Assembly (NCBI RefSeq): GCF_902832885.1
Contig: NZ_CADFDK010000011.1
Location: 62,001-126,000 of the forward strand
Length of the DNA: 64,000 nt
Direction of reading: 5' to 3'
From: Burkholderia seminalis DSM 23518
GTDB taxonomy: Bacteria > Pseudomonadota > Gammaproteobacteria > Burkholderiales > Burkholderiaceae
Shown here piece by piece: positions 6,790 through 62,218 of the stretch. How positions within the stretch are numbered: the stretch's first letter is position 1; each line of letters starts with the position of its first letter. Below the pieces are notes generated by a model. That model was not told where the DNA came from. It worked only from the letters and a program-made list of their open reading frames with translations, and ran no database searches. A program made the position numbers and the translations under genes.

Positions 6790-7037
6790 ATGGCTGGCGC
6801 CTGCCGGGGCGCGCCGGTTTCGCGTGCGCGGCGACGCCGTCCGATCGGGTTGCCGTGCCCGCCGGTACGCATCATTTTCGCGAAGCATCGCCTAACCTGA
6901 TGACATCCAGGCGCGATTTCCCGATATCTCAAATCCTTTCGTTTTGTAATATTCCTTGAAAACTGTCATATCATGTCGCCCCTCGGGCCGCGTTCGCGGC
7001 CGACGCACCTGACTGACCCTATTTACAAGGAAACCGG

Positions 7038-14429: not shown

Positions 14430-14708
14430 GTGCTTCCTGATGAGTAGCCGGCGCGCGGGCCGGGCGAAGCCGGGCGCGCGCCGCGATACGGCATGCCGGG
14501 GCGCGGCGCCGACGGACGGCGGGCGCAGCGATGGTCGCCCGCGCGTCTTAAACGGCGCTTAAGGGCCGGCGGTGACGCGGCAACCGGCCGCTCGCGCGGC
14601 CGGCCTGCGGGCATTGTGCCAGAGCGGCGCGGGCCGACGGCGAATTTGCCCCACGGGGACAGTTTGCGGCGCTTTCGGCTTTTATGGTCTAATGGCCGAC
14701 GACGAAAC
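14430..14708. promoter_or_regulatory. Divergent intergenic region between the ABC exporter and the thi operon
   Basis: This 279-base GC-rich gap separates the minus-strand exporter from the TPP riboswitch. It must hold the promoters for both directions. I see no clear consensus pair; TTTATGGTCTAAT just before 14695 is a possible -10 region for the thi transcript. Confidence 0.4.
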
Positions 14709-47365: not shown

Positions 47366-47692
47366 CGCAGATCTCCAGTGTTCAGTGTCGTGTAGGGAGC
47401 GCCGGGTATCGGTTGGACCCGGATGAGGCCGGAATACGGGCACGTAGACACTACTCGCAACCGCGCCGCGCCGGAAGTCGAATTGGCCCTGATTGCAATC
47501 GATTTCACCTGGCGGCGAGGGCGGAACGGTTCGGCGGGCGGCAGCGCAGGCGAAGCGCGGACCGATTGGATGCCGTGTCTTCAAATCCGGCCGGTTTACG
47601 AAGATGCCAGTAAATTGTCTGTAAAATCGCGCGAGCGAAGTCCAGTGCTCGCGCCATCCGAGGGCGCGTCAAAAGAAGAAAAGGCCGTAGCC
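47366..47692. promoter_or_regulatory. Divergent gap between the binding-protein gene and vgrG
   Basis: These 327 bases hold no supported gene. AT-rich strings near 47611-47629 (TAAATTGTCTGTAAAAT) may be the vgrG promoter. The frame of vgrG is open through most of the gap, but the codon pattern is unlike VgrG. Confidence 0.4.
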
Positions 47693-50600
47693 ATGAACAT
47701 GCAGAACACGATCGCCGCGTTGCGTGGCGGGTTGCTTCAGCAGGACCGGTTGCTGAAGCTCGATACGCCCTTGGGGGGCAACGTCCTGACCGTGCAGCGG
47801 GCAGTCGGCCGCTCGCGCATCGGGCGTGCGTACGAGTTCACGCTCGACGTGCTGTCGACCGATAGCGATCTGGAACTTAAAAAGCTGATCGCGCAGCCCG
47901 TCACGCTGTGGATCGAGCAAGGCGACCGCAGCTATCGGCCGATCAACGGATACGTGCATACCGCGCGCCGGCTGGGCGCCGACGGCGGGCTCACGACCTA
48001 TCAGCTCACGTTCGCCGATTTCACCCATTTCCTGAAGTTCCGTCGCGACCAGCGGCTCTGGAACGACACGACCGTCGACCAGATCATCAGCGACGTGCTG
48101 AACCAGCATCCGCAGGCCAAGGGCCATTTCCGCTTCGCGCTGTCGAAGCCGGTGCCGAATCGCTCGTACACGCGCCAGCACGACACCGACTGGCATTTCG
48201 TGCATCGGCTGATGGAGGACGAGGGGCTCTTCTGCGCATGGCAGCAGGCCGACGACGGCAAGTCGCACACGCTCGTGATCACCGACAATCTGCAGGCGTT
48301 TGCGCCGCTGTCACCGAAGACGGTGAGCTTCTATCGCGGCGGTGCGGCAAGCGGGGCCGACGCGTTCACGCAATGGTCGGGCACGCGCACGCTGCAGAGC
48401 GTCACGCGGTCGACGCGCACGTTCGACTACAAGAATCCCGCGCAACCGTCGAATCCGAAAGGTACGTCGCTGCCGACGATGGCCGGCCAGGGTGAACTGC
48501 CGGACCAGCTCGAGGTGTACGAGTACACGGGCGCTTACACGTATCTGGACCAGACGCGCGGCGACCATCTGACGAAGGTACGGATGGAGGAGTGGGAATC
48601 GCAGGCGAAGCGCTTCCACGGTGCGGGCGGCGTGCGCGCGATCGACGCCGGCCGGCGCTTCACGCTGGCCGAGCATCCCGAGCACGATCGCGATTCCGCC
48701 GATCAGCGCGAATTCGCCGCGATCGAGGTCGCGTGGTGGATCGAGAACAACCTGCCCGTTGCGAGCGACAGCGCGGACTTCCCGTACAGCCTGCGCGAGG
48801 CATTGATCCAGGCACAGGACGGTTACGGCGCCGATCCTGCGTTGCGTGTCCCGCACGACGACGGATCGACGGGCTTCTATCTGGTCGAGGTCGAGGCGCA
48901 GCGCGTGAGCGTGCCGTATCGCAGCCCGTTCGAGCACAAGAAGCCGGAGATGCACCTCGAAACGGCGATCGTCGTTGGGCCGCAGGGCGAGGAGGTCTAT
49001 ACCGACGAACTGAACCGGATCCGTGTGCAGTTCGTATGGGACCGGTTGAATCCGGCCAACGAGAACGCGTCGTGCTGGGTGCGCGTCGTGCAGTCCGATA
49101 CGGGCGGCGGCTACGGCGGCGTGCACGTGCCGCGTATCGGCGAGGAAGTGCTGATCGATTACGTGGGCGGCGACTGCGACCGGCCGCTGGCCGTCGGGCG
49201 CGTGTACAACGGCGCGAACCAGCCGCAGTGGCACAGCGACGGGATCCTCTCCGGCTACCGGTCGAAGGAGTATTCGGGCGGCGGCTACAACCAGCTCGTG
49301 ATGGACGACGCGACCGGGCAGAACCGCGTGCAGTTGATGAGCAGCAGCGCGAACAGCCTGCTGCACCTCGGCTACCTCATCGACCAGAACGGCAATTCGC
49401 GCGGGTCGTATCTCGGCAGCGGGTTCGACTTGCGCTCGGATGCGTACGGCGCGGTGCGGGCGAGCCAGGGCCTTTACGTGACGACGCACCCGAAGGCGCC
49501 GAACAGCCAGCCGCTCGACGTGAAGGAAGCGCAGCAGCAGCTCGTGACGGGTGAAAGCCTCGTCGAAGCGATGTCGGGTGTGAGCGAGCAGCATCAGGCG
49601 GAAAGCCTGAAGGAAGCGCACGACACGATGCGCGCGTTCACCGACGCGACGCAGGACAGCAAGTCGGGCAGCGCGTCCGGCGGGCGCACGGCCGGTGGCG
49701 GCACCGGAAGCGCGAATGCGTTCAAGGAGCCGGTGATGCTGTTCGGCAGCCCGTCGGGAATCGGGATGTCGACGCAGCAGTCGGTGCATGTGGTCGCGAA
49801 CGATCACGTGAACGTGGCGAGCGGGCGGAGCGTGCATGTCGCGGCGGGCAAGTCGCTGATCGGGAGCATCGGGCAGAAGCTGAGCCTGTTCGTACAGAAC
49901 GCGGGGATGAAGCTGTTCGCGGGCAAGGGCAAGGTGGAGATCCAGGCGCAGTCGGACAACATCGAGGTGACCGCGCAGAAGGCGGTGAAGGTCGTGTCGG
50001 CGACTGACCGGATCGAGATCGCGGCCGATCAGGGGATTCTGCTGACGAGCGGCGGCGGGTATATCCGCATTCAAGGCGGGAACATCGAGATTCATACGCC
50101 GGGTGCGGTCGATGTGAAGGGTGCGTCGCATACGTTCGCGGGGCCGGCGAGCATGGGGTATCCGTTGCCGAGTCCACGGCCGGATCAGCCGGGGCAGCTG
50201 GAGCTGTTTCACAAGTACGTGAACGGCGAGGCGGTGAAGGGCGGGCTGTTCACGGTGAAAGACGTGAACGGTGCGGTGCTGAAGAAGGGGGCGCTCGACA
50301 ACAGCGGCTACACGGTCGTGAGCGGGCTGCCGCCGGGTGCGGTACGTGTCGAGTTCGGGAAGGATCCGCGCGAGTCGGATCAGCCGGCGAACTATTTCAA
50401 ACAGGCGAAATGGCCAGCGGAGCCGGTCGAGCCGTCGCCGGAGGCGGCCCAGTCAGCAGCAACGGGACAGCTTGCCAGCCAGTTGCAAGGGATGGCCCCT
50501 GCTGCTGCGACGGCAGCCATGGGGCTCGTGAGCGGTGGCGGTGCAGGTGCAGCGCTGGGCGGACTGGCGAGTTCCGCGTTGCCGGCTGCGGCGGGCGCGC

Positions 50601-50872
50601 TGGGTGGGGCAGGTGCAGTCTCCGCGCTGCAGACGGCGTCGAGCCTGGGCAGCGCCGCTAAGCAGGTGGCCGGGATGGTGCAGGCGGCACGGCAAGGCGG
50701 ACTCGCGGCGCTGGCCGCGCCGGCGGCGAATGCGGCGTCCGGGGCGTTGCAAGGCGCATTGCCGGGCGTCGCCGGTATCGCGGGCAAGGGCGCCACGACC
50801 GTCGCCTCGGCCGCGGGCGCGACGGGCATGAAGCTGCCGACGAGCGGGTTTGGCGGACCGCTGAAATCCTGA
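47693..50872 (+). CDS. vgrG: Type VI secretion spike protein VgrG with C-terminal extension
   Basis: VgrG trimers form the puncturing tip of the T6SS. The 1059-residue protein has the gp27/gp5-like base (about residues 1-560, including VYNGANQPQWHSDGILSGY) and a DUF2345-type beta-helix needle to about residue 830. A TTR/SpaA-like fold follows (residues about 835-910, GGLFTVKDVNGAVLKKGAL), and then about 140 Ala/Gly-rich residues. The ATG at 47693 matches the family start. The Rhs gene begins 53 bases later, so this VgrG presumably carries the Rhs effector. No DUF4123 or DUF1795 adaptor gene lies between them. Confidence 0.93.
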   Translation: MNMQNTIAALRGGLLQQDRLLKLDTPLGGNVLTVQRAVGRSRIGRAYEFTLDVLSTDSDLELKKLIAQPVTLWIEQGDRSYRPINGYVHTARRLGADGGLTTYQLTFADFTHFLKFRRDQRLWNDTTVDQIISDVLNQHPQAKGHFRFALSKPVPNRSYTRQHDTDWHFVHRLMEDEGLFCAWQQADDGKSHTLVITDNLQAFAPLSPKTVSFYRGGAASGADAFTQWSGTRTLQSVTRSTRTFDYKNPAQPSNPKGTSLPTMAGQGELPDQLEVYEYTGAYTYLDQTRGDHLTKVRMEEWESQAKRFHGAGGVRAIDAGRRFTLAEHPEHDRDSADQREFAAIEVAWWIENNLPVASDSADFPYSLREALIQAQDGYGADPALRVPHDDGSTGFYLVEVEAQRVSVPYRSPFEHKKPEMHLETAIVVGPQGEEVYTDELNRIRVQFVWDRLNPANENASCWVRVVQSDTGGGYGGVHVPRIGEEVLIDYVGGDCDRPLAVGRVYNGANQPQWHSDGILSGYRSKEYSGGGYNQLVMDDATGQNRVQLMSSSANSLLHLGYLIDQNGNSRGSYLGSGFDLRSDAYGAVRASQGLYVTTHPKAPNSQPLDVKEAQQQLVTGESLVEAMSGVSEQHQAESLKEAHDTMRAFTDATQDSKSGSASGGRTAGGGTGSANAFKEPVMLFGSPSGIGMSTQQSVHVVANDHVNVASGRSVHVAAGKSLIGSIGQKLSLFVQNAGMKLFAGKGKVEIQAQSDNIEVTAQKAVKVVSATDRIEIAADQGILLTSGGGYIRIQGGNIEIHTPGAVDVKGASHTFAGPASMGYPLPSPRPDQPGQLELFHKYVNGEAVKGGLFTVKDVNGAVLKKGALDNSGYTVVSGLPPGAVRVEFGKDPRESDQPANYFKQAKWPAEPVEPSPEAAQSAATGQLASQLQGMAPAAATAAMGLVSGGGAGAALGGLASSALPAAAGALGGAGAVSALQTASSLGSAAKQVAGMVQAARQGGLAALAAPAANAASGALQGALPGVAGIAGKGATTVASAAGATGMKLPTSGFGGPLKS

Positions 50873-50925: not shown

Positions 50926-53900
50926 ATGGCACAACAACTTCCGCCGGGCGCTGAGAAGGAACAGGCCGTTACCTGGCTCAGCGATGTTTCTCCGAAGGAT
51001 GTCGCCGCGGTCGGCAACCGCTTCGATGCGTGGTTGCGCAAGATCAGCGGCAACCACATCACGTTCGAGGACGTGAAGACTTTTGCCGGTGCGGTACCGA
51101 TCATCGGCAACATCATGGCAATGGTCGACGCGCTGGGCGATATTGCCGAGATCATCGAGAAGCGCGGCGGCCAGGTGCTCGACTACATGAGCCTTGCGAT
51201 CAACCTGCTTGGCATCATCCCGGTTCCGCCGACGCTTGCGCCTTTCCGGATGTCGGCGCGCCCGCTGCTTGCGCTCGTTCGCCACGAATTGCTGATGACG
51301 CGCAACAACCTCGGCGCGGCGATCATCTCCGTGCTGGTCACGCATATCAACGCGACTTGCGCGACCGAGATCGAGGACTTTCTCAACAAGCTGAAAGCCG
51401 GTCTCGTCGAACTGCTCAACGGATGCGCATCGACGTGCCAGGAGCTCATGCTCGCGCTGGCGACCGGCATGGACAAGGCGCTGCACGGGCAACTCTTCGA
51501 CGCCAACGCGAATCTGAAGCGGCAGCAGGAGCTCGCAAAGAAGATGGCGGACGAGCGGCCGTGGTACAGCCCGAGCCGTGTCGGCGACGGCATCCAGTTT
51601 GCGTACGAGGGGACCAAGGCGCTGGGAAAGAAGGTTGTCAACAAGACGGCGGGCACGGTGGCGAAGCTCGCGCCGGATGCGTGGCTCGAGCCGTTTCGCG
51701 GCACGGTGACGTTCCTTCGGACCGAAGCGCCGAAGATCGCGGCGTCGATTCGTTCGCTTGCCGGCAGCGAAGAAGGCAAGATGATGTGGCTGGTCTTGCA
51801 GCTGATCGAGGCCGTCGGGCGCGTCAAGGCACGCGCGAAGCTTCATGAGCAGAGTACGGACGTCAAGGCGAACGGGAAGAGCCAGGCGAAGAAGACGCGG
51901 GAGCAGGAAGGGCTGGAGAAAGTCGACGGACAAGCGCCGGTCGAAGGGGCGGGGAGGAGCACGTGCAAGGCGTGCGGGCTCGGGGCATCGGAGGCATCAA
52001 TCGATTTCGCGTTCGGCGACGAAACGTTCTCCCACGTGGATTTCGACCTGCCGGGCGCCATGCCGCTCGTTTGGGAGCGTACTTATCGTTCTCGTCTGTC
52101 GGCTTATGACAATGGCGAGCTAGGTGCGCGATGGATCACGCCCTATACGACGCGCATCGACATCAAGAACGGTCAGTGGATCTATCGCGATGCGGAAGGG
52201 CGCAGCATCGAGTATCCGGCACTCGCGGCCGGCGCGGTGCACGATGATCTGTCGGAGAACCTGACGCTGTCGCGGCTCGACGATACATGGGTGACGATTG
52301 CGTACGGCCATGCCGTGCTGCATGTGTACGAGCGCCGCGGTGACGTGTTCCGTCTCGCGATGCAGAAGGACCGTGCCGGCAACACGATCACGCTGGACTA
52401 CGATGCGCTCGATCGCCTGGCGCGTCTGATCGATTCGAGCGGCAATGTGCTCGCGTTCGAGCACGATCGGCATGGCCGGATCGTGCAGATCGAACACGTG
52501 CTCAAGGATGGTGTTCGTCGCACGCTGGCGAGCTACGAATACGATGCCGACGGCGATCTCGTGCGCGCGGTCGATCGCCACGGCAATGCGCGGACGTATC
52601 AGTATCGCCGTCACCTTGTGACGCGCTATACCGATCGCACGGGCCGCGGGATGACGCTCGAATGGGATGGCGCGGATGCCGAGGACAACACAAACGCGAA
52701 GTGCATTCGTGAATATGCCGACGACGGCAGTCTCGATCTCCGGCTCGCGTGGAATCCGAACATCCGTCTGACCTACGTGACCGATGCGCTCGGACAGATG
52801 ACGCGGTACTACTTCAACATCCACGGTTACGTGTATCGGATCGTGTATCCGGACGGTAACCAGGAGTGGTTCCGGCGCGATGCTCATCACAATCTGGTAC
52901 TGCACATCCGGCAGGATGGCAGCATCGAACGGCGCGAATACGACGCGCGCGGCAATCTGGTTCAGCACGAACGGGCGGACGGCAGCGTCGTCGAGATGGC
53001 GTACGACGAGAAGGATCAGATGATCCGGCTCGTCGACCCGAACGGGCACGTGTGGCAACGCAAGTACGACGATGCGGGCAACCTCGTCGAGGAAATCGAT
53101 CCGCTCGAACACTCGACGAAGTACGAATACAACGACAAGGGCTTGCCGACGCAAATCATCGATGCGAAGGGCGGTTCGAAGACGCTCGAGTACAACGACG
53201 CGGGGCAGGTCACAAGCTATACGGACTGCTCCGGAAAGAAGACGGAGTGGCGCTATGACGATATCGGGCGCGTGATCGAGACAAAGGACGCGGCCGGTGG
53301 CGTGGTGGCCTATCGGTACGGCCCGAACGGGCAACCGACCGAAGTTCGCTCGCCTGCTGGCGTCGAACAGATCCAATACGATGCTGAAGGCCGCTTGCTC
53401 CGTCACACGGATCAGCTCAATCGTTCGACGCGATATGGCTACGACGCGGTCGGCCGCATTGCCAGCCGCGCCGATGCGCTCGGGCAGACGGTTGCGTATC
53501 GCTATGACCGCCTCGGGCGCCTGACCGCGTTGACCGATGCCAACTTTGCGACGTATCAGTTCCACTACGATCCGGCAGGGCGGCTGATCGAGGAAATCGG
53601 CTTCGACGGCAAGTCCACGCGTTATCAGTACGACAGCGAGAGCGGCAGTCTCGTTGCGATCGACGAAGCGGGTTGCGTGACGTCGATCGACGTCGATGTG
53701 AACGGTCGGCTGCTGAAGCGCGTCGCGGGGGAAAGCGAAGAGCGGTTTGCCTACGATCGGAGCGGCAAGTTGATCGATGCGGTGAATCGATACGGCCGCG
53801 TGCAGTTCTTCTTCGATCCGGTCGGCAATCTCGTGCGCGAACATCATGCGTACGACCTGTTCGGCGAACGACGCAGTTACGTATGGCATCACGAGTACGA

Positions 53901-55536
53901 CGAACTCGGCAATCGGCGGCGTACCGTTCGGCCGGACGGCCATGCGGTCGACTGGCTGATGTATGGGTCCGGGCATGTGCACGGGATGCTGCTCGATGGC
54001 GAGGAGCGTGTGCAGTTCGAGCGCGATGACTTGCATCGCGAGACGGTGCGTGTGCTGTCGAGCAAGGTCGGCCAGCGCACGCACTACGATCCGGCTGGAC
54101 GCGTGTTGCAGCAGACGATTCAGCGATCGACGTCGCCCGCGCCGCTTGCCGAGCGGCGGTATCGCTATGACGTGGTGGGGCAGTTGTCGCGAATCGAGGA
54201 CAGCCGCAAGGGCGGGACCGACTATCGATACGATCCGGTCGGACGGTTGATCGAGGCGATCAGTCCCATCGCGAAGGAACGGTTTGCGTTCGATCCGGCG
54301 AGCAACATCATCGATCCGGTGCGGACTGCGGACATGTCTGCGTCGCGTCCGAGTCCGGTGCGGCCGGAAAGCACGTTGCCGGTTGAGGTGCCAAAGGTGC
54401 TTGGTAACCTGCTGAAGGCGTATGCAGGCATGCACTTCGAGTACGACGCGCGCGGGAATCTGGTGCGCAAGCGCACGCCGGCGGGTGAGCAGGAATACGA
54501 GTGGGATGAATTCAATCGCTTGCTGTCCGCACGGGTTGCCGAGACGTCGCGGCAGAGTCAGGCGCGGTATTTCTATGACCCGTTCGGTCGGCGTATTGCG
54601 AAGGAGGTGAACGGCGAGCGGACGGTGTTCGGGTGGGATGGTGACACGCTGGCGTATGAGAGTGACGGCGAGCGCGGCACGCACTATCTGTACGAGCCGG
54701 GAACGTTCGTGCCGCTGGCGCAGTATGTTGCGGGGCCGGTTGAGGGGATCGTGACACCGGAGTGGGAGAGTACCGACCGCTATGTGCCAGAGGAAGATCC
54801 GCTGCAGAAGGTGCCGGAGCGTCGAGGCGATGCGGCGGTGTTCTATTACCACTGTGATCAGATCGGTACGCCGCAGTTGTTGACGGATGCTGATGGAGAC
54901 GTCGTGTGGGAGGCGTCATATAAGGCGTGGGGGGAAGCGCGGGAAGTGATCGCGCGGGTGTCGAAGGCGGCGGGGATCGTGGCGAGGAATCCGCTGCGGT
55001 TTCAGGGGCAGCAGGACGATGAAGAGACGGGGCTGCATTACAACCGGTATCGGTACTACGATCCAGAAGTAGGACGGTTCATTAGCAAAGATCCAATTGG
55101 ACTTGCGGGTGGGCTGAATGCTGTCCAGTACGCGCCTAACCCCATCGGTTGGGTTGATCCGTTGGGGCTCAGATGCGATAGTCCAGCAGAAAAACTTCGT
55201 CGGAAGCTTTCAGCGCTTGAAGGAGCACAGGCGACTGCTGATCGAACGCGTGCGCTGCCAGACGGACGTATCCGGTACTACGATAAAGAAGCGTTAGCCA
55301 GAACTGCCGGGCCGACGAGAGGACGATCACACGTCACCGAATGGAATCCTGCTACTGGTCAAGTCCGCAGTTGGGAAGAGACGTACGACCATTCTGGAGC
55401 AGTGAATCGCGTTCATCCTAAGATGAATGATGGCGAGGTTCTGGATTTACCACACTACCCGCCGACCAAGGCAGATATAGATCAAGGGAAGGCGACGCCG
55501 GGCGGCAGAGCAATTAATTGTCCATGTAGGTGCTGA
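50926..55536 (+). CDS. Rhs polymorphic toxin, probable T6SS effector
   Basis: This 1536-residue protein starts with a variable N-terminal region (residues 1-350) that has two hydrophobic stretches around residues 45-110. Then come CKACGLG and the Rhs beta-cage with many YD repeats, and the core boundary [10 protein letters not shown] (Asp1389) to DPLGL (residues 1411-1415). After that is a variable tip of about 121 residues, the predicted toxin, ending NCPCRC. I do not recognise the toxin family; its pattern VTEWNPATGQVRSWEE...NRVHPKM...HYPP looks conserved. GC content drops from about 55050 onward, so the tip was probably exchanged. The stop overlaps the next start by one base. Confidence 0.92.
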   Translation: MAQQLPPGAEKEQAVTWLSDVSPKDVAAVGNRFDAWLRKISGNHITFEDVKTFAGAVPIIGNIMAMVDALGDIAEIIEKRGGQVLDYMSLAINLLGIIPVPPTLAPFRMSARPLLALVRHELLMTRNNLGAAIISVLVTHINATCATEIEDFLNKLKAGLVELLNGCASTCQELMLALATGMDKALHGQLFDANANLKRQQELAKKMADERPWYSPSRVGDGIQFAYEGTKALGKKVVNKTAGTVAKLAPDAWLEPFRGTVTFLRTEAPKIAASIRSLAGSEEGKMMWLVLQLIEAVGRVKARAKLHEQSTDVKANGKSQAKKTREQEGLEKVDGQAPVEGAGRSTCKACGLGASEASIDFAFGDETFSHVDFDLPGAMPLVWERTYRSRLSAYDNGELGARWITPYTTRIDIKNGQWIYRDAEGRSIEYPALAAGAVHDDLSENLTLSRLDDTWVTIAYGHAVLHVYERRGDVFRLAMQKDRAGNTITLDYDALDRLARLIDSSGNVLAFEHDRHGRIVQIEHVLKDGVRRTLASYEYDADGDLVRAVDRHGNARTYQYRRHLVTRYTDRTGRGMTLEWDGADAEDNTNAKCIREYADDGSLDLRLAWNPNIRLTYVTDALGQMTRYYFNIHGYVYRIVYPDGNQEWFRRDAHHNLVLHIRQDGSIERREYDARGNLVQHERADGSVVEMAYDEKDQMIRLVDPNGHVWQRKYDDAGNLVEEIDPLEHSTKYEYNDKGLPTQIIDAKGGSKTLEYNDAGQVTSYTDCSGKKTEWRYDDIGRVIETKDAAGGVVAYRYGPNGQPTEVRSPAGVEQIQYDAEGRLLRHTDQLNRSTRYGYDAVGRIASRADALGQTVAYRYDRLGRLTALTDANFATYQFHYDPAGRLIEEIGFDGKSTRYQYDSESGSLVAIDEAGCVTSIDVDVNGRLLKRVAGESEERFAYDRSGKLIDAVNRYGRVQFFFDPVGNLVREHHAYDLFGERRSYVWHHEYDELGNRRRTVRPDGHAVDWLMYGSGHVHGMLLDGEERVQFERDDLHRETVRVLSSKVGQRTHYDPAGRVLQQTIQRSTSPAPLAERRYRYDVVGQLSRIEDSRKGGTDYRYDPVGRLIEAISPIAKERFAFDPASNIIDPVRTADMSASRPSPVRPESTLPVEVPKVLGNLLKAYAGMHFEYDARGNLVRKRTPAGEQEYEWDEFNRLLSARVAETSRQSQARYFYDPFGRRIAKEVNGERTVFGWDGDTLAYESDGERGTHYLYEPGTFVPLAQYVAGPVEGIVTPEWESTDRYVPEEDPLQKVPERRGDAAVFYYHCDQIGTPQLLTDADGDVVWEASYKAWGEAREVIARVSKAAGIVARNPLRFQGQQDDEETGLHYNRYRYYDPEVGRFISKDPIGLAGGLNAVQYAPNPIGWVDPLGLRCDSPAEKLRRKLSALEGAQATADRTRALPDGRIRYYDKEALARTAGPTRGRSHVTEWNPATGQVRSWEETYDHSGAVNRVHPKMNDGEVLDLPHYPPTKADIDQGKATPGGRAINCPCRC

Positions 55537-55790
55537 TGATGAATCAACGCGATGAAAAACTGAACTTGGTCACGGAAATAATGGAGTTCATCGAAACACA
55601 ACCCTATGCCCCGGAAACATGTGCTCGATATGTTTATCTCAAGTCGCTTGATGCTAGGGCATATCGCTATGGTGATAAGAGGCTCGACACGCTGCTCGAC
55701 ACGATTGGTGGGATGAGTGCTGGAGAGGAGTTCGTCTATTCAAAGACTGAGCTTCTAGAAATGTTGAAGGCGTACTTGTCAGAAGCGTAG
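55536..55790 (+). CDS. Candidate immunity protein for the Rhs toxin
   Basis: An 84-residue acidic protein starts at ATG 55536, whose A is the last base of the Rhs stop (TGATG). A GTG at 55530 and an ATG at 55539 are alternatives. It has lower GC than the Rhs body, matching the toxin tip. The family is not recognised. Position and coupling are the only grounds for calling it the cognate immunity protein. Confidence 0.7.
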   Translation: MMNQRDEKLNLVTEIMEFIETQPYAPETCARYVYLKSLDARAYRYGDKRLDTLLDTIGGMSAGEEFVYSKTELLEMLKAYLSEA

Positions 55791-55796
55791 TAACGA

Positions 55797-55816
55797 AAGG
55801 CCGCTCGAGCGGCTCC
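55797..55816 (+). terminator. Degraded hairpin after the first immunity gene
   Basis: The palindrome GCCGCTCGAGCGGC, flanked by AAG and TCCTGG, follows the immunity stop by a few bases. It looks like a decayed relative of the AAGGGCCGC-loop-GCGGCCCTT hairpins at 56998 and 58724. Confidence 0.5.
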
Positions 55817-55851
55817 TGGTATATATGTGATTGTCGAGGTCGGGGGAGATG

Positions 55852-55959
55852 GAAATCAGGTACGACGGGATCGACCATTTGATCGAGCAAACGGGGGGCG
55901 ACGGCAAGATGGTGCGCTATGAATACGACGAGGTGGGTTTACGGATCGCGTCACCTTGA
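55852..55959 (+). pseudogene. Orphan Rhs YD-repeat fragment
   Basis: Thirty-five codons read as Rhs core (RYDGIDHLIEQTGG, VRYEYDEVGLRIAS) and end in TGA. No start codon or flanking core is present. It is a leftover of an earlier Rhs gene, upstream of cassette A. The 136 bases to the next fragment also hint at Rhs sequence (CDYDAGG) in a broken frame. Confidence 0.7.
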
Positions 55960-56095
55960 GGAAATTACTCAACACCCCGCAGCCAAAGGCGCACCGGCAC
56001 CTAGCGAGTGGCGCAATGCGACTACGACGCGGGTGGTGTTCTGCTCCCAAGCAATGTGCTTCTCGATTGGGAGAGTGAAGGAGCGCGACTTATAG

Positions 56096-56587
56096 ACGGG
56101 GCTCGCCTATAACCGACACAGATACTACGATCCGAGTTCGGGGCGCTTCGTGTCCAAGGACCCGATCGGTCTCGCTGGCGGCAACAACCTCTATCAATAC
56201 GCGCCCAATCCGACTGGCTGGATCGACCCGCTGGGGCCGGCTCGATGCCCTTGTGATCCGTGCTCGAAGTATGATGTTGGTACGTACGACGATCTCAAGA
56301 AGCGTTCAGCTTCTGGCGACGGCCTCGATATTCACCACGCGATGCAAAAACACCCAGCCGCCCAGGTTGTTGCTGGCTACGATCCAAAGACTGGCCCGGC
56401 CATAGCTGTTCCTGCTGGTGAACATGAATAAATTCCGACACGTAAGGGCGCGTATACGGAAACGGCGAGAGATTTGCTAGCTAGCGACATCAGAGATCTG
56501 AGACAACACACTGGCGCTTCTAACAAGTGCTTGCAACGGCTCATTGCGCTCAACAAGGAAATGTACCCAAAGGCTTTTAAGAAATAG
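56096..56587 (+). pseudogene. Orphan Rhs C-terminal cassette A: core tail plus toxin broken by one nonsense codon
   Basis: The frame begins in Rhs core ([40 protein letters not shown]) and continues into a toxin tip with [21 protein letters not shown] at 56429-56431 interrupts it, but the same frame reads on without gaps for 51 more codons (IPTRKGAYTETARDLLASD ... MYPKAFKK) to a TAG at 56585. The DIHHxMQKHP...ARDLLA pattern is one I recall from Rhs-linked nuclease-like tips; the exact family is uncertain. A single base change would restore the toxin. Confidence 0.8.
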
Positions 56588-56612
56588 TATTCACGTAAAA
56601 AGGACTTCAGTC

Positions 56613-56966
56613 ACGAATACAGAGGAATTCGTTGCTGCGATCCGGACGCATGTACAGGAGCAGGCGACAAGTGATCTTGTGAGAACTTTTACTGCCCCTC
56701 CGGGGCGGCGGCCTCGTGATCTGCTGATCAAGGTTTCGGAGTAGCGGGCTCGTTTACCGAGCGATGAACAACGGCTACTCGACGAAGCGATAGCAGAATC
56801 GGTTCGCGTTGCATTATTTGGTCTCTTTGCTGTAATCGACGGGTCGAGGGTCGTTGACGAAAATGTGGATCGGTTCATTATTACTGCTGTAGGCCACGAC
56901 GGAGTTCGAACAGAGCTTAATGAAGATACCGCAGTCGACCTTCACAGTGAGTTTGCGCCTGATTGA
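56613..56966 (+). pseudogene. Decayed immunity gene of cassette A
   Basis: A frame starting near 56613 (TNTEEFVAAIRTHVQEQ) has an in-frame TAG at 56742-56744 and then reads on for 73 codons (RARLPSDEQRLLDEAIAES ... DLHSEFAPD) to TGA 56964-56966. An AAAAGGA site at about 56597 lies at the right distance from the place where the start would be, but no ATG, GTG or TTG is there, so the start also seems lost. It follows the broken toxin directly, as an immunity gene would. Family not recognised. Confidence 0.65.
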
Positions 56967-56997
56967 CGAGAGCCTTCGAAGGGAGCAGTAAAAGAAC

Positions 56998-57025
56998 AAG
57001 GGCCGCGTAAGCGGCCCTTGTTGTT
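56998..57025 (+). terminator. Cassette-end terminator, copy 1
   Basis: AAGGGCCGC (56998-57006), loop GTAA and GCGGCCCTT (57011-57019) are followed by GTTGTTT. It has the same stem as the hairpin at 58724. Confidence 0.8.
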
Positions 57026-57037
57026 TCTGGTCGCTGA

Positions 57038-57403
57038 TGTCCGGAAATAGACCAACGCGCGGTTACTCGTTTCTCCCCTGATAATGCGAGTTCACGCGCT
57101 GCGGCTCGAGCCTTTGGATGTGCTAGCGATGACGCAGGGCACCCGATTGCGCGCAACCTTGGCGGTCTTGGTGGCGTTAAGGAAGTCTTTCCTCAGGATC
57201 CTAGTACGAATCGAGGGGCGTTCAACCGCTTTGAAAGCCAGATTGCGGACCACGTGGCTAGTGGCGACAATGTAATCGTTCGAGTTGTACCACAGTATGG
57301 ATCTGGCTCAACCAGACCTGATTCAATTCTCTATCAAGCTAGGATAAATGGTGTTACGCACTCGCGGACGTTTGCGAATCCTTGTCCATGCAAATGCCCA
57401 TGA
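57038..57403 (+). pseudogene. Orphan cassette B: nuclease toxin tip without Rhs core
   Basis: An uninterrupted frame of 121 codons with no start reads as the end of a DNA/RNA non-specific endonuclease-like toxin: DDAGHPIARNLGG, then VFPQDPSTNRGAFNRFE, then VIVRVVPQYGSGSTRPD, ending FANPCPCKCP. The D-GH active-site region of the Endonuclease_NS_2 type is intact. Unlike the other cassettes, the Rhs core part is missing. The TGA overlaps an ATG at 57400, a remnant of toxin-immunity coupling. Confidence 0.75.
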
Positions 57404-57414
57404 CTGGAGATGAA

Positions 57415-57843
57415 ATGACGCCCACTGAACGATTGACGACCTTTATAGCGGATATGCTGCGTTGGGAGATAGCGCTTGAGGCGAAGCGACGAGCCCTGAG
57501 AGGCAACCAGGACTCATCGGTGCGTGAGCAAATGTTGACCGATGCTAGAGAAGCGCTAAACCAGATTTTTATGGAGCATCTCAGTGCCGAGGCGCTTGCT
57601 ACGAAGGCGCAAAGTCGCCTCGACTTGTTGCCTTCTGGTCGTCCGCCAGAGTTTGAGCAGCAAGTGCTGGATGATACAGAGAGCAAAGTCGGTAAGACGA
57701 TCTACATCGAGACGTTCAATGAAAGAGGACTCGCTCAGCGTCTCCGTTACGCGCTCGTAATGGAGCACGGTGAGCCGAAAATTGACGCCGTCTACGATTG
57801 GCGTCGGAGTACGGGTAAATGGGACAAGCAGGATTCCATCTAG
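57415..57843 (+). CDS. Orphan immunity protein of cassette B (NTF2-fold-like)
   Basis: The 142-residue protein starts at ATG 57415 with GGAGA four bases upstream; in-frame ATGs at 57394 and 57400 overlap the toxin end. The C-terminal half (ERGLAQRLRYALVMEHGEPK, IDAVYDWRR) resembles NTF2-fold immunity proteins, which often protect against endonuclease tips. The frame is intact, so it may still give protection although its toxin is silent. Confidence 0.75.
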   Translation: MTPTERLTTFIADMLRWEIALEAKRRALRGNQDSSVREQMLTDAREALNQIFMEHLSAEALATKAQSRLDLLPSGRPPEFEQQVLDDTESKVGKTIYIETFNERGLAQRLRYALVMEHGEPKIDAVYDWRRSTGKWDKQDSI

Positions 57844-57948
57844 AGTGAGTCACCGCGCCACATGGTGCGGGTGAAGCAAGGGCGGTTATCAGCAAAGCGG
57901 CTCGCAATGTAGGAATCAGGAATCCACTGCGCTTCGCGGACCAATTGA

Positions 57949-58446
57949 GATGCTGAAACGGGGTCGCTCCAGCTGCACTATAACCGGCATCGGTACTACG
58001 ACCCGAGCAGCGGCCGCTTCATCTCGAAAGACCCGATCGACCTCGACGGTGGCTTCAACGTCTATCAATATGCGCCCAACCCGACCGGCTGGATCGATCC
58101 GTTAGGGCTTTCGAAGCAATGTCCTAAATGCTTGCCTAGCTGCAACGATTACGCGTCTCAGGGGCCGAAAGATTCAACTGAGATGGCCCCAAAGCATATC
58201 AACCAAAATTCGGTAACGTTCTCTACGCCCACAACACAAGGCCACATTGATCTGCAAGGGGCATCGCATTTCGATAAGGCCACGGGAACAGATATTCCGA
58301 CACCTCATGTTCAGACTCGTACAATTAACGTTGGGCCAAACGGCCAAGTGACGACGTCGAAAAAGACAGAGGTTACAAGGGCTGCGACTAAACAAGACGT
58401 TCGTGTTGCAAGGGAACTGGCGAGACGAAAGGGGCTGTGCAAATGA
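57949..58446 (+). pseudogene. Orphan Rhs C-terminal cassette C: core tail plus Ntox24-like toxin
   Basis: An open frame of 165 codons reads Rhs core ([39 protein letters not shown]) and continues into a tip with [25 protein letters not shown] and [18 protein letters not shown]. The GxxHFD...PTPHV pattern resembles the polymorphic toxin type 24 group; this is a recollection, not a search. Core sequence (RNPLRFADQ) continues upstream at about 57914 in another frame, so the join is frameshifted. There is no start codon of its own. The tip is intact. Confidence 0.78.
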
Positions 58447-58718
58447 GTGATCTGATTGATGCTTTGCAAAACTGGTATACCTCCCAATGCGACGATGTTT
58501 GGGAGCACTCTTATGGCGTCGAGATTACCAATATTGACAACCCGGGCTGGAGGGTCAAGGTAAGCGGTGCGTCAGGGAGGAAGCCTGTCGATATGAATGT
58601 AGAGCGCGATGAAGAAAATTGGATCACGGTGAAGGCAACCGAAACGGAATTCGTCGGGTACGGTGGTCCTGGTAATCTGAATGAACTACTGGCGCTCGTT
58701 GTCGATTGGTTGCGATAA
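58443..58718 (+). CDS. Orphan immunity protein of cassette C (Imm53 family)
   Basis: The 91-residue protein has the Imm53 pattern: [19 protein letters not shown], then [13 protein letters not shown]. It overlaps the toxin stop by four bases (ATGA), which supports toxin-immunity pairing. The frame is intact. It is followed by the second cassette-end terminator. Confidence 0.85.
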
Positions 58719-58723
58719 GTACG

Positions 58724-58750
58724 AAGGGCCGCGAGAGCGGCCCTTGTTGG
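58724..58750 (+). terminator. Cassette-end terminator, copy 2
   Basis: AAGGGCCGC (58724-58732), loop GAGA and GCGGCCCTT (58737-58745) are followed by GTTGG. The stem is identical to copy 1 at 56998. Confidence 0.8.
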
Positions 58751-58773
58751 TGCGATGAGTTGAAGCTCGCCGT

Positions 58774-58890
58774 TCAGGTGGCGGTAATGGTGAGCTTGCC
58801 GTGTTGGACGTGAACGTGGAGCTTCTGTCCGGCGTGGAAACCTGCGTCGTGTGTCAGCCAGCGGCCTGAGATCTTGATAAGGGATTGCGG
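58774..58890 (-). pseudogene. SymE-family toxin remnant (antisense)
   Basis: On the minus strand 38 codons ending at TGA 58774-58776 read IKISGRWLTHDAGFHAGQKL and then VHVQHGKLTITAT. This is the conserved core of SymE-like proteins (SGxWLxxAGFxxGQ). The N-terminal part and start are missing where the Rhs fragment of cassette D begins. SymE-like genes are often found next to Rhs loci in Burkholderia. Confidence 0.7.
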
Positions 58891-58895
58891 CCGAT

Positions 58896-59289
58896 GTGCG
58901 GGGCTTCGCGTCCAAGGAGCGTGAGACGGGGCTTTATTACAACCGGTATCGGTACTGCGATCCGAGTGGTGGGCGCTTCGTGTCGAAAGATCCGATTGGG
59001 TTAGCTGGCGGGGTCAACGTCTATCAATATGCGACGAACCCGGTACAGTGGATTGACCCGCTAGGGCTCACGAAATGCCCTTGCGCCGACGACTGCGAGA
59101 AGATTCGCGCCGACGAAGGTGTCGTGACCGGAAGGCACGGTCACCTGAGAAGGATTGGCGGGCAACAAGACTCACATCATATTTACCAAGATGCCGCCGT
59201 GAATGGTCTGCCAAACTGGGCATTACGGCTGATACGCTGACTCGTGTGCCAAGGAATGGAAATGGTTCAACCAGGAGATGTTAGTGTGA
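58896..59289 (+). pseudogene. Orphan Rhs C-terminal cassette D: core tail plus truncated HNH-like toxin
   Basis: The frame reads core ([41 protein letters not shown]) and a tip with [27 protein letters not shown], then stops at 59238-59240. [10 protein letters not shown] is like the histidine motif of HNH-type Rhs tips, but the remainder seems deleted or shifted. A second frame just downstream (AKEWKWFNQEMLV) ends at TGA 59287-59289 overlapping the GTG of the next gene, which looks like the true toxin end in another frame. Confidence 0.65.
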
Positions 59290-59672
59290 GCAAATGGATT
59301 ACAGATGATATGATTTTGGAGATATCCAAGATATGTGAATGTTTTTCGAAAAATATTTTCGAAAAATTGGTTTCGAATGGAAACTTTGACGCCAAAGAGT
59401 CGGAGGGGATTAAGAGGAATATTTTGGAATATCTGTGCGGGGATGTTCTGGATGAGAATGCGCTAAAAAGAATTGGAGTCCCTGATCGAGGCTACATCGT
59501 TAGTCACGTGAAGTTGTATGAAATTGATCTGGGGGCGCCATCGGGGTCCAGTAAGAGGATGCAACTCGATCTAATAATAGATGGCGTTGAAAGTGACCTT
59601 ACTCTTGTTGCGCATGCATATAAAATGGCTGAAGGGGATAGGATTTTGATTTACGATGCTCTGACTTTGTAG
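59286..59672 (+). CDS. Orphan immunity-like protein of cassette D
   Basis: The 128-residue protein starts at GTG 59286, with AGGAG about 8 bases upstream. It is acidic, of low GC (clearly AT-rich against its surroundings) and intact. No family is recognised. Position after a toxin tip and the GTGA overlap suggest an immunity role. Confidence 0.65.
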   Translation: MSKWITDDMILEISKICECFSKNIFEKLVSNGNFDAKESEGIKRNILEYLCGDVLDENALKRIGVPDRGYIVSHVKLYEIDLGAPSGSSKRMQLDLIIDGVESDLTLVAHAYKMAEGDRILIYDALTL

Positions 59673-61435: not shown

Positions 61436-62218
61436 TCAAGGCAACGAAATCGTCAAATTAGCCGACTCCGGCCCCACCTTGATCACCTGCGAATAAGGCG
61501 CCAACGCCTGCAGCGTCTTGTCCTTGAGATAAGTATTGAGCCCGAGGTACCCGAGCAGCGCCACGAGTGCAAACACCGCCCCGATCGCCCAAACCGGCAC
61601 CTCACGCTTCAACCGATGCGCGATCTGATCCGGCAACGGCCAATGCGGCGCGAACGGCGCCCGCTTGCCTTTCATATGCGCGATCTCATCGCCCAGCCGC
61701 GCGGTGAGGTAAGCGAGCTTCTCCGGCCCTTCGAGCAGATACTTGCCCTGGAACCCGAGCAGCAGACACATATGAAACACCTCGAGCGACTGCAGCCGCG
61801 CCGCGCCCTGCGCACGGCAATCCTCGAGATACTGATAGAACTTCTCGCCCGCGAGCTGCTCGCCGAACAGCACGAGCTGCAGCGGCCGGCGTTCCCAGTC
61901 GGCCCGGATCTTGAACTGCGACGACAGCACCATCTCGTCGATCGCGGCGCAGAACGCGAATTTCGCGCCGTAGACGTCCTCGGCAGCGATATTCAGCTTC
62001 TTCGCACCGCGCTCGAAATCCGACAGGAACTCCTGGATCCGCGTGCTGAACTCGCTCGCGCTGTCCGGTTCCCGCCCGTTCTTGAGCAGGAACAGCATGA
62101 AGAAGCCGTCGTACAGCAAATCGAGCAGCGAACGCGCCTGGAACGCGGAGTCCGTCGACGCCGGGGTATGCATGGGTGCCGGCGCATTGTCGCCGAACAG
62201 GGAAGGCGCGTAGCTCAT
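61436..62218 (-). CDS. tssL: T6SS inner-membrane protein TssL (DotU/IcmH family, short form)
   Basis: TssL is one of the three membrane-complex proteins of the T6SS and contacts TssK in the baseplate. The 260-residue protein has the cytoplasmic hook domain (LLDLLYDGFFMLFLLKNG, ALQ-type CAAIDEMVL, FHMCLLLGFQGKYLL) and a single C-terminal membrane span (about residues 210-230). There is no OmpA-like peptidoglycan domain. The start overlaps the tssK stop (ATGA). Confidence 0.95.
   Translation of the reverse strand: MSYAPSLFGDNAPAPMHTPASTDSAFQARSLLDLLYDGFFMLFLLKNGREPDSASEFSTRIQEFLSDFERGAKKLNIAAEDVYGAKFAFCAAIDEMVLSSQFKIRADWERRPLQLVLFGEQLAGEKFYQYLEDCRAQGAARLQSLEVFHMCLLLGFQGKYLLEGPEKLAYLTARLGDEIAHMKGKRAPFAPHWPLPDQIAHRLKREVPVWAIGAVFALVALLGYLGLNTYLKDKTLQALAPYSQVIKVGPESANLTISLP

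Follow-up and report, generated by a model that had tools for sequence, protein, structure and literature searches.

Repeated C-terminal displacement as the very probable origin of an orphan Rhs tip and immunity gene array at a type VI secretion locus of Burkholderia

Behind a full-length rhs gene linked to the type VI secretion system (T6SS) of Burkholderia seminalis DSM 23518 stand four blocks, A to D, made of toxin tips or their remains and immunity-type genes. We consider it very probable that they are an orphan array of Rhs C-terminal (CT) tips with their immunity genes, produced by repeated C-terminal displacement behind this one rhs gene. Two observations carry this reading: at the corresponding chromosomal site of other species it is tips of the A, C and D types that sit on the core, and two other genomes have the window's attached tip in loose form. 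By the window we mean the whole analysed stretch of 64,000 nucleotides, positions 62001-126000 of contig C11 of genome G000 (assembly of 7.97 Mb in 55 contigs). G-numbers denote genus genomes, 65 including the window's own, and L-numbers denote loci fetched for comparison. The order from 5´ to 3´ is vgrG, the full rhs gene, its immunity gene and the four blocks, as follows (window positions; a number after a family name is the value of its match).

47423..50872, plus strand: vgrG, gene of a type VI spike protein (Phage_GPD 7.6e-89, T6SS_Vgr 2.4e-33, DUF2345 9.3e-57)
50926..55536, plus strand: full-length rhs gene, core to 55170 (RHS_repeat 7.6e-83, Rhs_assc_core 3.7e-28)
55171-55533, plus strand: attached tip of the main rhs gene, the C-terminal part after the core
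55530..55790, plus strand: putative immunity gene of the attached tip, judged by position; open frame
55800..55813, no strand: hairpin after this immunity gene, right edge of the exchanged unit
55852..56095, plus strand: decayed core-derived stub with a stop directly left of the A tail
56096..56587, plus strand: block A, core tail and tip, tip frame interrupted (Rhs_assc_core 4.3e-19)
56613..56966, plus strand: block A, immunity gene, frame interrupted
56995..57022, no strand: terminator-like hairpin repeat after A, 12-pair stem
57038..57403, plus strand: block B, tip with a non-specific nuclease domain, without core tail (Endonuclea_NS_2 1.4e-11)
57382..57843, plus strand: block B, immunity gene, open (Imm-NTF2 1e-07)
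57967..58446, plus strand: block C, core tail and tip, open; frame broken left of the tail (Rhs_assc_core 7.1e-19)
58437..58718, plus strand: block C, immunity gene, open (Imm53 2.6e-24)
58724..58745, no strand: terminator-like hairpin repeat after C, of the same form as after A, at 58727
58777..58893, minus strand: antisense remains of a SymE-type toxin gene in the gap separating C from D (SymE_toxin PF08845 6.1e-10)
58896..59240, plus strand: block D, core tail and shortened tip (Rhs_assc_core 1.8e-20)
59244..59672, plus strand: block D, immunity-type gene, open (weak DUF7668 match, 0.0077, below cut-off)
61436..62218, minus strand: presumed tssL, conserved in position, anchor of the orthologous site and outside the array

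The gene at 61436-62218 we take to be tssL/DotU by recognition. Of the 29 Burkholderia loci L005-L033, 26 have it at 93-98% identity, and on this ground the genome of the window is placed in the Burkholderia cepacia group. With vgrG adjoining rhs and the presumed tssL nearby, the locus has the arrangement of a T6SS-delivered Rhs effector. Core tails lie to the left of tssL in 16 of these 29 loci, and what is attached to the core there differs between species. The C tip is attached in L007 and L018, on cores 91-94% identical to that of the window (it also sits on a long core in L111), and the window's own tip is attached in L022 (core 92%). L005 carries the D tip (92%) on a core that is 85% identical over its last 202 residues, which is all that is in view. 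On a more divergent core, 72% identical in its C-terminal and 47% in its N-terminal part, a D-like tip (51%) is attached in L010 and the A tip in L119. In L013, the window's tip is loose behind another attached tip. Thus, the attached tip has been swapped at one orthologous site. The opposite outcome envisaged by the earlier note on this DNA, a separate rhs gene for each tip with no swapping, was not found; moreover, a tip that is loose in one genome can be the attached one in another.

The locus as a whole does not seem to be fixed at this position. Within 10 kb, eight loci (L008, L009, L011, L023, L024, L026, L028 and L032) show neither a core nor a tail, nor the window tip or any long match to vgrG, and L016 has a D-type immunity gene alone at the tssL site; in L017, L025, L031 and L033 the sequence ends within 4 kb of the site. 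In L008, L009, L011, L023, L024 and L026, which have no long match to vgrG, rhs or the array, a short piece corresponding to the beginning of the window's vgrG frame is left, so the island seems to be gained and lost as a whole.

We searched each tip in the 65 genus genomes. The C tip occurs in six of them, as long frames (1533-1625 aa) in G023, G032 and G037; short frames are seen in the window's own genome, in G027 and G046, and in a further G032 copy; its attached relatives are 87-95% identical. The A tip is present in three genomes, in a long frame in G058 (89%, with the tip split by an insertion) and in short frames in the window's own genome and G052. Seven genomes hold the B tip or its relatives: G006 has it fused to a full Rhs (79%), long frames at 47-48% are found in G023 and G003, and the frames are short in the window's genome and in G004, G035 and G036 (31-47% in these three). 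For the D tip, found in four genomes, G049 has a full frame at 54%, G056 a 92% relative whose core is cut by the contig edge, and G055 only a 19-residue piece. The window's attached tip also occurs in four genomes, long in its own and G060 and short in G004 and G032. Relatives of all four displaced tips are therefore attached to Rhs cores within the genus, as the earlier note had proposed to check. Core tails themselves have matches in 62 of the 65 genomes. A plasmid search matched 49 records, none of them covering 80% of the query; coverage was 11-12% in the eight matches listed.

Two side observations belong to these genomes. The insertion that splits the attached A-type tip of G058 (about 1.2 kb, L119:10106-11359) has frames of more than 300 codons on both strands and is probably an insertion sequence. 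G027 (L131, L140 and L142) has 28 core-tail matches, and its array of seven loose tips in a row at a contig start (L131) is longer than that of the window.

Within the window, a core-end family of 148 nt has four copies, one in the main gene at 55024 and three at 56093, 57964 and 58923, which are 61%, 65% and 70% identical to it. The tails of blocks A, C and D, each of 48 codons, match the Rhs_assc_core profile TIGR03696, and block B has no match to it. The supposition that four displaced blocks stand behind a full rhs gene, three of them beginning with the end of the core and alignable with the main gene, is thereby borne out. It had also been supposed that each block keeps a tip and an immunity gene. 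This holds for the immunity frames of B, C and D, which are open; that of A is broken into 42 + 73 codons. L118 and L119 have 116 open codons in its place, after the tip in both, so intact copies of the A immunity gene exist. Block A, for which 56096-56966 had been given, in fact extends on its left flank to about 55852 with the decayed core stub. Its tip is open for 63 codons, against 115 in G052, and the tip of D has 56 codons, against 143 in L005. G+C content is 61-68% across vgrG and the core and 47-54% across the array.

Family assignments are few. Matches to toxin or immunity families are limited to the tip of B and the immunity genes of B and C, and the pairing of tips with immunity genes is putative. 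The attached tip has no Pfam match and no PDB sequence match. The A tail with its first tip piece gave nothing better than E 0.89 in the domain-family search, the C tip has a weak Ntox24 match (0.025, below cut-off), and PDB sequence searches with the C tip and the D immunity gene gave nothing useful. For the D immunity-type gene, G057 has a copy at 75% identity whose frame is short.

The hairpin repeat GGCCGCNNNNGCGGCC, of the form GGCCGC-4-GCGGCC, occurs four times in the window, against 0.02 expected, and was examined as a candidate cassette recombination site. We rejected this, as two of the four copies lie far from the array at 6986-7001 and 14586-14601. These outside copies lead us to read it as a general terminator form of this genome and not a cassette mark.

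How much of the gene is exchanged can be outlined from both sides. We aligned the last 1500 bp of the main core with 11 main cores at the tssL site, in steps of 100 bp. Identity per step ranges from 73 to 97%, declining somewhat from about -300, as far as the final 100 bp. There, all ten genes with another tip have 60-73%, and L022, which has the same tip (95% identical over 360 bp), has 85%. On the right side, the sequence is some 90% identical to L022 up to 55821 and some 40% beyond, the drop coming just past the hairpin at 55800-55813. The immunity gene at 55530-55790 travels with the tip, with amino-acid identities of 93% in L022, 85% in L013 and 91% in L110. From the left drop in the core end and the right drop past the hairpin, the exchanged unit consists of the last 0.1 kb or so of the core, the tip, the immunity gene and the hairpin.

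A second line of evidence comes from stubs shared by different old tips. We collected 105 distinct tails (119 before removal of identical ones), from loci fetched for having matches and thus not a random sample, and compared the upstream DNA of the 43 tails with fewer than 60 open codons upstream. Block A of the window and the C block of L110 share a stretch of 640 bp (89% identity), in which the immunity gene that goes with the window's tip lies, before they diverge; the stub of L110 that matches 55852-56095 (89-90% identical) stands behind the same immunity gene as in the window. In L133 and L135, tip type 19 is attached (the core of L133 runs off the contig), and 638 bp at 89% lead up to a loose tail, followed by tip type 20 in L133 and type 21 in L135. 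One stub type is common to seven cassettes with seven different tips. Past the stub, the tails of this group are alike in the first 24 nt (identity 0.91, against 0.78 among main genes) and less so further in (0.72-0.76, main genes 0.65-0.71). The order of tips can also be reversed: type 18 is attached and type 4 loose in L132 (core cut by the contig edge), while in L144 type 4 is attached and type 18 lies further out. The symE remnant follows the immunity gene of C in the window, L110, L111, L114 and L115, and the tip after it is D in the window and types 46 and 47 in L110 and L111. Related SymE-type pieces were also seen in L139, L145 and L148. The same unit and stub before different old tips (window and G032; L133 and L135) is as expected if recombination in core tails moves the units.

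A special stop at a fixed codon left of displaced tails was considered as a signal in its own right. It is present in 13 of the 43 short-open tails, with 12 exact pattern matches in 7 of the 65 genomes. One shared stub type accounts for eight of these stops and a second for two or three, which leaves by estimate about four separate origins. Since chance could give as many, we dropped the signal and kept the stops as evidence of shared stubs.

These comparisons bear on two other histories. One is that tandem full rhs genes eroded in place, with no exchange of tips. The decayed core stub left of A and long core pieces behind the main gene at the tssL site of L007, L012 and L019 would fit it; tips, however, swap on one conserved core, and different tips follow the same unit. 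We find this history extremely improbable, and it is already disfavoured. The long pieces themselves (L007:6656-7558, L012:7039-8580 and L019:6705-8105, in reverse-complement locus coordinates; 90-94% protein identity) are recent displacements. The other history is import of a ready-made array, whole, from another strain to a place beside the main gene. G032 has the window's tip, the stub and then C in a row, and in G027 there is a C block almost identical to that of the window, with an array on a different contig that includes distant tips of the A and D types (types being single-linkage clusters). Still, apart from the window's own, none of the 65 genomes has close copies of two or more of the four tips (G023 has C and a B-like tip at 47%), and the block order of the window recurs in none of the stretches examined. 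Import of parts of the array is likely, that of the whole row unproven and in our judgement improbable.

For displacement itself, we suggest the following course. A unit would enter by homologous recombination in the conserved core end, either as a circle by one crossover or as a linear piece by two. It would land before the resident tip and push the old one downstream, away from the core, the start and delivery. A donor unit can bring along a decayed stub after its immunity gene; the tip that it displaces would therefore take over this stub with its stops as a ready-made left edge and would be silenced at once. The displaced toxin would then decay, and the orphan immunity gene may help for a time against kin still deploying the old tip.

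Going one step further, Rhs tips might be self-perpetuating units of core end, tip, immunity gene, terminator and decayed stub, with ends set by core tails. Silencing of the old tip would then be inherited with the incoming unit and not brought about by later decay, and each displaced tail would be the next landing place. We offer this extension tentatively, as a nearly balanced proposal that leans slightly towards doubt. If true, it gives a homologous route where illegitimate joining was suspected for effector arrays.

Several points weigh against displacement by this route. Firstly, no circle or intermediate was seen, and a two-crossover exchange or illegitimate joining would leave similar DNA. 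Secondly, displaced tails are only 62-69% identical to the main tail in the window (54-90% over 45 displaced tails), and the raised identity past the stub lasts about 24 nt; either the crossover was short or the tails have diverged since. Jackson et al. (2009) report identical cores within a locus, and near-identical displaced core is not found in the window; we treat this as a difference of age or host group, not as a defining feature. Thirdly, B has no tail, so its arrival by the core-tail route is unsupported. Finally, the tails come from match-selected loci, and the wider count of stubs is no test: 26 tail pairs share at least 100 nt upstream up to the tail and their tips differ in all 26, but nearly all pairs differ anyway, and the pairs are not independent, 20 coming from one seven-cassette group and 4 being plain core homology.

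The members of the array had further been thought to be orderable by their stage of decay, an idea that our results do not support and that we dropped. Entry of units always at the core would make the block closest to it the most recent one. In the window, this closest block is A, and both of its genes are interrupted by in-frame stops; in C, at a greater distance, both are open, and D, at the far end, combines a shortened tip with an open immunity-type gene. Over 45 displaced tails in 24 arrays, rank is correlated neither with identity to the main tail (rho 0.13, p 0.39) nor with the length of open frame upstream (rho 0.04, p 0.80). The test took in the 45 of 105 distinct tails that have an assigned main gene in view, tails within one array not being independent; a tail counted as main when at least 190 open codons lay upstream, which also takes in a few long orphans such as L110_9088. 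Decay thus does not date members of such arrays.

What the array might still do for its host can be asked for tips and immunity genes separately. The tips could form a silent reservoir, from which the cell's own recombination fuses a stored tip to the main core and so switches the weapon. Such switching is reported for Salmonella, through recombination in 522 bp at 95% identity (Koskiniemi et al. 2014, PMC3967940), and the C tip is open. In the window, however, the longest exact matches of the main core with the A, C and D tails are 11, 13 and 21 bp, at 62-69% identity and far below the Salmonella case; the A and D tips are broken and B has no tail. Given matches of this size, reuse of stored tips by the cell itself appears unlikely, and we regard the reservoir as very improbable.

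The immunity genes could instead be a bank, expressed and protecting against kin with old tips, as proposed for Vibrio arrays by Kirchberger et al. (2017, PMC5361080). The immunity frames of B, C and D are open, selection to keep them being unproven. The pairwise ratio of nonsynonymous to synonymous substitution rates (dN/dS) of the immunity genes, window against relatives, is 0.06-0.20 wherever computable (not for B), a range that includes time spent attached. In the closest orphan-orphan pair, the C block of the window and that of L114, 203 codons contain 4 nonsynonymous changes and no synonymous one; the pair gives no sign of constraint, with too few changes to judge. The A immunity gene is broken, and no promoter is shown, the array having 7 promoter-like sites on both strands, 2 of these on the plus strand, against 3.8 +/- 1.8 expected. 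We hold such a bank to be possible, with doubt prevailing to some degree.

Rhs C-terminal displacement arrays were described by Jackson et al. (2009, BMC Genomics 10:584, PMC2935791), and we compare ours with theirs. Alike are a full rhs gene followed by a string of loose tips with core remnants, a tip attached in some strains and loose in others, the low G+C of tips, and recombination between core pieces, proposed there with intervening genes carried along. A circle with a homologous crossover was likewise proposed, not demonstrated. The arrays differ in that theirs are from Enterobacteriaceae and ours is at a T6SS site of Burkholderia, that cores are identical there whereas our 48-codon tails are 62-69% identical to the main gene, and that we document stubs shared by different tips. 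Among the literature matches listed, no title dealt with Rhs orphan arrays of Burkholderia, although such a paper may well exist outside them.

Orphan rhs-CT/rhsI and cdiA-CT/cdiI modules (Poole et al. 2011, PMC3150448; Koskiniemi et al. 2014) resemble our blocks as toxin fragments, usually without start signals, with a linked immunity gene downstream of a main locus. The Salmonella orphan differs, as its long homology to the main gene makes it reactivatable, while the longest exact match here is the 21 bp given above. In the T6SS immunity arrays of Vibrio cholerae (Kirchberger et al. 2017), successive effector displacement beside T6SS genes also leaves orphan immunity genes; there, old effectors are replaced and immunity genes retained, and illegitimate recombination is suggested for effector arrays. 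In the window, by contrast, tip remains and immunity genes both stay, and three of the four blocks are joined to a core tail that offers homology.

How a new tip and immunity pair can join the old ones instead of replacing them is still debated, with circles set against illegitimate recombination. The tssL site contributes a conserved core in many species and a shared unit and stub before different old tips. Given the conserved core, the core-tail matches across nearly all of the genus genomes and the shared stubs, the competing routes make predictions about breakpoints that can be checked, so that the mechanism becomes testable through strain comparison. Taken together, the array shows a change of warhead by shunting the old tip aside, a well-supported case of a known arrangement in unusual detail; to what was described before, it adds clear limits for the unit that is exchanged and stubs that different tips have in common.

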